Source of the DNA: Vreelandella subglaciescola
GTDB lineage: Bacteria > Pseudomonadota > Gammaproteobacteria > Pseudomonadales > Halomonadaceae
Direction of reading: 5' to 3'
Length of the DNA: 64,000 nucleotides
NCBI GenBank assembly: GCA_030454225.1
Contig: JAKDRW010000003.1
Location: 19,409 to 83,408, forward strand
Shown: in pieces, positions 27,842-29,389 of the stretch
Layout of the letters: each line of letters begins with the position of its first letter
Numbering within the stretch: the stretch's first letter is position 1
The notes under the pieces: generated by a model
The model's input: only the letters and a program-made list of their open reading frames with translations
Databases searched by the model: none
Told to the model about the DNA's origin: nothing
Translations under genes and position numbers: made by a program

Positions 27842-27862
27842 ATAATCCTTTGCGTCAAGGCA

Positions 27863-27898
27863 CAAAAAAGCCCGGGCTTAATCGCTCGGGCTTTTTTT
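27863..27898 (+). terminator. Intrinsic terminator after nqrM (bidirectional type)
   Basis: aaaaaagcccgggcttaatcgctcgggcttttttt. Confidence 0.85.
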
Positions 27899-27936
27899 CG
27901 TGCTTAACTGCTGTGTAATGACGCGCGAGCTGGAAG

Positions 27937-29019
27937 CTACAGCGTATCGAGAGCGGTACGCGCCTGTTGCTGCCACGAGCCCGGCAGCGCGGCGGCTTTT
28001 TCTAGTGCCGAGCGCGCCTCGCGATGGTTATCTTGCTGCTGATATACCAGCCCCAGGTTCAGCCAGGCAACGCCCAGGGTATCGTCGATAGCGGCAGCGT
28101 GCTTAAACGCCTGCGCGGCTTTTTCGAGCCGGTTGATAGCATAATAGGCATTCCCCAGCGCGAAGTGGCCCATGGCGTTTTGCGGCTGGGCGACGCTCAG
28201 TGCCTGCCAGCTGGAAAGCGTGGCTTTGGCCCCGTGGAGCGCCTCATAGGCGCTGATCGCGTCGACTGCGCGCTTGGCGGTTACATCAGCGGGGATGCGC
28301 CCGGGTTTGGCGAGTATAAAGCCCCAGCGCTGGCTGCGCGCCCAGGTGGCATCAAAGCGCGCGAACGATAGCGTTTGCCGACGGGTTTCGCCGCTGCGCA
28401 GGGTTAGCGTTTCATCGGCCAGGTCATAGCCGATCACTACCGCGTAGTGCCACATGGGCCAGGCGGGAAGTGACAGGTTCTGCATGACTACCACCGGGTC
28501 GCCGGCGGCCACGTGGCCGAGTAATGCATCGAACGTGGGACGAACGGGGAACGCCAAGCGCTGGTGGCGGCGCGCCGTGGCCAGCATTTCCGGCTGCACG
28601 CTGCCTTCACGCCCGGGGATGAAAACCTGCACAATCAGGCTGTCGACGCTGATCTCTGCCGAGTCGTTGTCTGTGACGTCTTGCGCTTTATCGCTGTGCT
28701 CTGCCGGCGAAGTCGCTTCTGCGTTGTTGGCAGTCCAGGCGTTTCGAGACGCGTCTTGCGCAGCCGGTGAATAGTTGAGCACCGTCGCCAGCGCTGCCGG
28801 GCCGCACTGGTACTTTTCCTGAGGATAGAAGGGCACGTCGTCAAGCTCGGCGTGCGCGGGCAGCGTTTGATAGCTGCTATCGCGCAGCTCGGGGCTTGCG
28901 GCGCAGCCGCCAAGCAGCAGGGTGAGCAGTAGTAAAGACGCCAAAACGCCCGCGGGGCGGGCGTTTTGGGTCATCAGACGTAGGCGCTTCAGACGCTTAG
29001 CGGGTAAACGGGAAAACAT
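27937..29019 (-). CDS. PA2778-like C39-type cysteine peptidase lipoprotein with TPR region
   Basis: LLLGGC lipobox, YQCGPAALATVL (Cys), WHYAVVIGYD (His), C-terminal TPRs. Alternative start at MTQNARP (28974). Confidence 0.82.
   Translation of the reverse strand: MFSRLPAKRLKRLRLMTQNARPAGVLASLLLLTLLLGGCAASPELRDSSYQTLPAHAELDDVPFYPQEKYQCGPAALATVLNYSPAAQDASRNAWTANNAEATSPAEHSDKAQDVTDNDSAEISVDSLIVQVFIPGREGSVQPEMLATARRHQRLAFPVRPTFDALLGHVAAGDPVVVMQNLSLPAWPMWHYAVVIGYDLADETLTLRSGETRRQTLSFARFDATWARSQRWGFILAKPGRIPADVTAKRAVDAISAYEALHGAKATLSSWQALSVAQPQNAMGHFALGNAYYAINRLEKAAQAFKHAAAIDDTLGVAWLNLGLVYQQQDNHREARSALEKAAALPGSWQQQARTALDTL
28941..28969 (-). promoter_or_regulatory. Terminator/attenuator-like hairpin at the PA2779-like/PA2778-like junction
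   Basis: ccaaaacgcccg-cgggg-cgggcgttttgg, 12-bp perfect stem inside the 5' end of the downstream CDS. Confidence 0.6.
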
Positions 29020-29389
29020 TGGTCAGACCCAGGATGTCGGTGACTAGCAGGATGATGAACACCGCAAACAGGGCACCGATGACGCCGCCTCCGGCACCGG
29101 CCGGCATCTGGTCAAGCTGGTCGGCCATCTGCCGGGTTTCGGCATCGCTTAGCGAAGCCACACGATCCTGAACCTGGTCAACGCTTACGCCCTGGGCCAG
29201 CAGCTGTTCCTGCACGTCGGCGCGGGCCAGCACGTCGTTGATGCGTTCGCGGTCGCTTGCGGCGGAGTCCGCCTGAAGAGCAGACTGCGTGCTTACCAGC
29301 CCTGCCGTTTGGGCGGCGGCAACGGGGAGGCTGACTAGCGCCATGACGGCAATCAGCAGCATAGCTACGTAGCGACGAAGATAAGGCAT
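28997..29389 (-). CDS. PA2779-like small exported protein with C-terminal TM helix
   Basis: 130 aa; N-terminal signal peptide; SLSDAETRQMADQLDQMPAGAGGGVIGALFAVFIILLVTDILGL; start set at MPYLRRYV. Confidence 0.8.
   Translation of the reverse strand: MPYLRRYVAMLLIAVMALVSLPVAAAQTAGLVSTQSALQADSAASDRERINDVLARADVQEQLLAQGVSVDQVQDRVASLSDAETRQMADQLDQMPAGAGGGVIGALFAVFIILLVTDILGLTNVFPFTR

Follow-up and report, generated by a model that had tools for sequence, protein, structure and literature searches.

PA2778 and PA2779, an almost obligate gene pair of Proteobacteria and a candidate envelope peptidase-substrate system

Introduction

Two adjacent minus-strand genes of Vreelandella subglaciescola raise the question of whether a C39-like cysteine peptidase carried by a lipoprotein could have as its dedicated substrate the small exported protein encoded next to it. 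They lie in the window, that is, the whole stretch of 64,000 nucleotides that was analysed. A first-pass annotation, made from the sequence alone, had described here a 130-aa exported protein followed by a C39-like lipoprotein with TPRs, and both the arrangement and the positions were confirmed. It had also likened the pair to the PA2778 and PA2779 families, rightly so, since the two window proteins match the respective profiles (NF033920; NF033919 and DUF6627) far above the curated cut-offs and are members of these families. Its overall interpretation, cleavage of the small protein next to the membrane, is partly supported by the results presented below.

A literature search found no functional study of either family. 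In Pseudomonas aeruginosa a transposon lies between PA2779 and bswR (PMC3985676), and in P. stutzeri the promoter of a PA2779-family gene was chosen as a strong constitutive promoter (PMC10155442). The family names were thus already known; the substrate idea, the PAG core, the linked loss of catalysis and the hairpin are proposed here.

Results

The small protein, which is the proposed substrate, is encoded at 28997..29389 (minus strand, stop codon included) and matches both NCBIfam NF033919 PA2779_fam (E 2.5e-42, 143.9 bits for a cut-off of 40) and Pfam DUF6627 (PF20332; E 1.6e-29, 103 for a cut-off of 27) in profile searches. A Sec signal peptide extends to about A29 (29303..29389), a column in which A is found in 91% of the family, and the sequence that follows runs ...SLSDAETRQMADQLDQMPAGAGGG-VIGALFAVFIILLVTDILGL-TNVFPFTR. 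It comprises a helical domain at residues about 45-95 (29105..29257), delimited by conservation and by models of homologues in which the helices reach a pLDDT of about 80-93, with G67 and R76 invariant (100%) and E84 near-invariant in the family alignment. The domain is followed by the juxtamembrane stretch PAGAGGG (29084..29104), the transmembrane helix VIGALFAVFIILLVTDILGL (29024..29083), identified by hydropathy and hydrophobic family-wide, and the short C-terminal tail TNVFPFTR (29000..29023), which is missing from some family members and has a median net charge of 0. PA2779 is therefore an exported small helical protein with a single C-terminal transmembrane helix. Profile searches of solved structures rendered no convincing PA2779 relative.

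Motif conservation was calculated with weighting from 237 distinct PA2779 sequences (effective number 142). Among the juxtamembrane residues, conservation is highest in PAG, which corresponds to positions 96-98 of the window protein and directly precedes the membrane (P 94%, A 98%, G 99%), and the residue that follows is G in about 50%, A in 21%, S in 20%, E in 6% and Q in 3%. Since a second Gly is present in only about half of the weighted sequences, the element that is kept is PAG and not GG. Of the GAGGG motif at which cleavage had been proposed, the conservation of small residues next to the membrane therefore stands, and the double glycine does not. The proposed likeness to an LSxxEL...GG leader does not hold either: L-[ST]-D-x-E is conserved where the final helix of the domain begins, LS-x-x-E being situated in this helix about 13 residues before PAG, too far away to imitate such a leader. 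Some members without the FPF tail still have [PT]AG[GA] and a membrane helix, and extra PA2779 genes without a peptidase of their own also retain the PAG motif. Tail-less proteins that end directly after the membrane helix (PAGG...LLLIILLILLLR) were observed for extra or solo genes in five loci (L082, L091, L117, L124 and L127), as well as in four paired loci (L120, L224, L290 and L299). The layout of motif, membrane helix and tail had been compared to a C-terminal sorting signal; a search of 12 genomes with a PAG-TM-tail profile retrieved no proteins besides PA2779 members at meaningful E-values, so that it is not a general sorting signal.

The peptidase gene is located at 27937..29019 (minus strand), with an alternative start at 28974. 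The ATG at 29019 would give a 23-base overlap with PA2779, and that at 28974 leaves a short gap and fits the lipoprotein signal better. The product matches NF033920 C39_PA2778_fam (E 5.6e-87, 291.4 bits for a cut-off of 150) and, in Pfam, Peptidase_C39_2 (E 3.1e-9) and TPR. It carries FYPQEKYQCGPAALA and the lipobox LGGC (28903..28914); a lipobox was detected automatically in 214 of the 222 homologues and by eye in 7 of the remaining 8. The sequence QEKYQC (28804..28821) provides the oxyanion Gln and the catalytic Cys, which is kept in every readable partnered homologue, and alignment with homologues places the catalytic His codon, within WHYAVVIGYD, at 28447..28449. Since both catalytic residues are present (QCGPAA, WHYAVV), these motifs predict a lipoprotein whose C39-like Cys-His site is intact. 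The Asp-Pro usual in C39 catalysis is presumably exchanged for Ser-Gly, an assignment made from sequence, and this counts against the substrate model proposed below. The C-terminal TPR repeats (27985..28173) are indicated by Pfam (TPR_2/TPR_1), by helical repeats in the model and by matches to TPR folds. In a fold search the best C39 match was 3erv and many TPR proteins also matched, while a profile search of solved structures gave, among the matches listed, only TPR proteins. Between the catalytic Cys motif and the remainder of the C39 domain, the window protein has some 35 additional residues (NNAEATSPAEHSDKAQDVTDNDS..., about 28660-28770, minus strand), which are not present in the aligned homologues and divide the NF033920 match into two.

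Concerning the location of PA2778, Asp at position +2, the enterobacterial inner-membrane signal, was found in 0 of 214 PA2778 lipoproteins, which by the enterobacterial rule would go to the outer membrane. Such +2 rules do not predict the membrane of Pseudomonas lipoproteins (PMC6469965). As Asp+2 is absent, PA2778 may reside in the outer membrane, at a distance from the helix of PA2779, and the topology, which the first-pass annotation took to be compatible, may or may not be so. It is on this question of location that the juxtamembrane-cleavage model is weakest.

Co-occurrence across genomes, by which the first-pass annotation had proposed that the pair be checked, was analysed in a class sample of 274 genomes and an order sample of 319, a family being called when the profile score exceeded the curated cut-off. 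In the class sample PA2779 was found in 67 genomes and PA2778 in 64, all 64 peptidase genomes having PA2779; the three genomes with PA2779 alone correspond to contig-edge matches (G210, G011) and to a frameshifted PA2778 (G185). In the order sample both genes were present in 101 genomes, and 101 of the 102 with an above-cut-off peptidase have PA2779; the only PA2778 found alone (G521) is catalytically dead, and the only PA2779 found alone (G726) lies at the very end of a contig. A phylum sample was in agreement (40 and 41 genomes over the cut-off), and Fisher p-values for the co-occurrence are below 1e-58, without correction for kinship among genomes.

The loci, collected by profile search of genome contigs with PA2778, come from carriers that include Vreelandella, Halomonas, Billgrantia, Oceanisphaera, Pseudomonas, Stutzerimonas, Thiobacillus, Marinobacter and Desulfobacteraceae. 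PA2779 is usually directly upstream of PA2778 on the same strand, and the pair is kept even where the genes are convergent (L318) or have a TerC-like gene between them (L087). No third conserved gene was found near the pair among the homologous loci, the sole large extra cluster being an antisense shadow of PA2778, and the pair is therefore the unit. In several genomes PA2779 genes outnumber PA2778 genes. PA2778 and PA2779 form an almost obligate pair across Proteobacteria.

The catalytic residues follow the presence of PA2779. Cys and His are both kept in 245 of 245 readable peptidases with a PA2779 neighbour, a set that includes duplicate records (222 distinct pairs) and from which the partnered fragments of interrupted genes in L128, L141 and L173 were left out. 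In these three loci PA2778 is broken by frameshifts or an in-frame stop and PA2779 is still there, which could represent early decay or sequencing error. Conversely, Cys is lost in seven relatives without a PA2779 neighbour (L130, L241, L242, L243, L245, L321 and L322), and His is also lost in six of them. The six Pseudomonas-like Cys-less relatives form one clade in the tree (support 0.997) and L130, an extra peptidase copy whose genome contains an intact pair as well, is separate from it, so that the losses amount to two independent events and not to seven. One exception is an intact PA2778 with no adjacent PA2779 (L238); of two further relatives, one is cut by a contig edge (L216) and the other is too distant to call (L244). 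As far as the encoded residues indicate, peptidases accompanied by PA2779 retain their active site, and loss of catalysis is linked to the absence of PA2779. Together with the co-occurrence, this joint evolution of PA2779 and the Cys-His dyad supports the earlier proposal that the two exported proteins form a dedicated pair.

Some of the unpartnered loci deserve mention in their own right. In four Pseudomonas-like genomes without PA2779 (L241, L243, L321 and L322) a shortened PA2778 relative devoid of both catalytic residues lies beside a gene for a PbpG-like D-alanyl-D-alanine endopeptidase, and it may have a non-proteolytic role. The identification of the solo C39 relatives of Pseudomonas-like genomes as FapD was rejected, since the ones that were inspected had no fap-like genes next to them and these relatives have lost their catalytic residues. 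At L244 (4116-6159) a TPR-C39 protein with reversed domain order is preceded by a protein of 291-296 aa. This locus may represent a remote form of the pair, and we do not claim it as one, the match of the neighbour to DUF6627 being sub-threshold (E 0.0097; hhalign probability 2.5%).

Downstream of PA2779, 30 nt past its stop and inside the region encoding the PA2778 signal peptide, the window contains a terminator-like RNA hairpin, CCAAAACGCCCGCCCCGCGGGCGTTTTGG, with a stem of 13 pairs (28941..28969, minus strand); the 101-nt fold at this position has a z of -3.06. Within 100 nt of the PA2779 stop, 54% of the 222 gene pairs (51% weighted) have a stem of 9 base pairs or more, compared to 8% of shuffled sequences and 11% when PA2778 coding sequence served as the control, and the mean fold z is -2.2 versus -0.5. 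When a T-run was required in addition to the stem of at least 9 pairs, 36% of the pairs were retained versus 1-2% of the controls. The stem sequences differ among lineages. These features suggest that PA2779 could be made in excess over PA2778, a situation that would suit a substrate and its enzyme better than a 1:1 complex. Another stem, a strong one with T-runs on either strand, is found at 27861-27900, between PA2778 and the next gene. It is probably a shared bidirectional terminator; Rfam gave only sub-threshold leader matches there.

In 67 loci the PA2779 stop and the PA2778 open frame share one reading frame, which made it possible to read through the stop and model both proteins as a single chain, a purely computational device. 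AlphaFold gave a mean pLDDT of 88.7 and a pTM of 0.85 for the read-through chain of the Vreelandella zhuhanensis pair (L161), and of 87.3 and 0.84 for a second lineage (L065) aligned solely with other read-through pairs. The C39-TPR part represents about 0.71 of the fused chain, and this part plus the PA2779 helices about 0.83-0.85. Because the pTM values are close to the share of peptidase and PA2779 helices together and not to that of the peptidase alone, the helical domain appears to be confidently placed on the peptidase in the models, where the tether may itself favour contact. The PAG-TM segment has a low pLDDT in both, so that the models give no placement of PAG in the active site. Mean-field coupling over the 222 pairs was too noisy for contacts, the top pairs falling mostly on the C39 domain and not on the TPRs.

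Discussion

We lean, with slightly more confidence than doubt, towards regarding PA2778 and PA2779 as a dedicated envelope peptidase-substrate pair in which cleavage takes place at PAG. PA2779 is assigned the part of substrate because of the pairing, the kept catalytic dyad, the invariant PAG at the membrane and the surplus PA2779 copies, which are expected for the substrates of one enzyme. The helical domain of PA2779 would dock on PA2778, which would then cut at or just after PAG at the membrane surface (around G98, LDQMPAGAGGGVIG in the window protein). The cut would set free in the periplasm a helical protein of roughly 70 residues, the helix and the tail staying behind, and the RNA hairpin between the genes could hold the peptidase low relative to its substrate. 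More tentatively, and with doubt here somewhat the heavier, these elements could be parts of a widespread, undescribed envelope system in which a C39 lipoprotein peptidase with TPRs and no ABC transporter releases from the membrane, by a cut at PAG, a single small helical protein dedicated to it, the levels of enzyme and substrate being set by a hairpin in the coding sequence of the peptidase signal peptide.

According to the main rival, PA2779 would be anchored in the membrane to activate PA2778 or to provide a platform for its docking, and PA2778 would cut other envelope proteins. Obligate co-occurrence and docking are predicted by it too, and, as the peptidase would be inactive without PA2779, so is the decay of the catalytic residues after PA2779 loss; moreover, parts of the helical domain are conserved as strongly as PAG (one Gly and one Arg, 100%). 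By itself, however, an activator role leaves unexplained the invariant small-residue motif at the membrane, the extra PA2779 copies without a peptidase and the excess of PA2779 suggested by the hairpin, and we consider it unlikely, if worth keeping in mind. It can also be imagined that PA2779 is a tethered inhibitor or pseudo-substrate which keeps the peptidase in check as long as no signal sets it free. Protease and inhibitor genes are commonly adjacent, the models imply docking, and PAG could fill the active site uncut. Nevertheless, a peptidase deprived of its inhibitor should become active, and loss of Cys and His would not be expected to follow, and solo PA2779 copies would have no local target to inhibit, which makes such a role improbable.

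A sortase-like transpeptidase, which would cut at PAG and join the PA2779 domain to another envelope component, would account for a motif, membrane helix and short tail laid out as in C-terminal sorting signals (PMC3237569), and for the variability of the tail. It is very improbable, as the signal is limited to PA2779 members in 12 genomes, the median net charge of the tail is 0 and the fold of PA2778 is C39-like, neither that of a sortase nor that of a rhomboid. Least credible of all is that the two proteins merely share an operon without interacting. The genes are indeed adjacent and mostly on the same strand, but the pairing extends across Gammaproteobacteria and beyond in unrelated contexts, with one pair convergent, and catalysis loss accompanies the absence of PA2779.

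With the peptidase-substrate reading, two named families without a function, present in many Pseudomonas, Halomonas and other Proteobacteria, become one testable system: the neighbouring gene encodes the likely substrate, the search for the probable cut site is narrowed to a handful of residues, and losses that occurred in nature already tie catalysis to PA2779. In the literature examined, ABC-less periplasmic C39 peptidases are without a well-defined substrate.

The known systems that PA2778/PA2779 resembles differ from it in defined ways. The C39 peptidases that remove double-glycine leaders (PCAT) share with PA2778 the papain-like C39 fold with Cys and His and, if our proposal is correct, cleavage after small residues. 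PA2778, on the other hand, has no ABC transporter, only Peptidase_C39_2 and TPRs, and PA2779, unlike PCAT substrates, has a Sec signal and a C-terminal transmembrane helix, its motif is not N-terminal, and its second Gly is not conserved, E or Q occupying that position in about 9%. The GlyGly-CTERM/rhombosortase system likewise combines a Gly-containing motif directly before a C-terminal transmembrane helix with a dedicated peptidase, and genomes with a single target also keep both genes adjacent (PMC3237569); PA2778 is, however, a C39 lipoprotein with a soluble domain and not an intramembrane rhomboid, and has one target family instead of many unrelated targets. Among experimental precedents, FapD comes closest. 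This periplasmic C39 peptidase belongs to the Fap amyloid system of Pseudomonas; it depends in vivo on its active-site Cys, and its target has been reported as unclear (PMC5557850). FapD is, like PA2778, an exported, ABC-less peptidase of C39 type. The fapABCDEF context is absent here, the neighbours in the window being other genes and no third gene being conserved among homologues: while FapD is encoded in an operon with amyloid subunits, the TPR lipoprotein PA2778 is bound up with a single small transmembrane protein.
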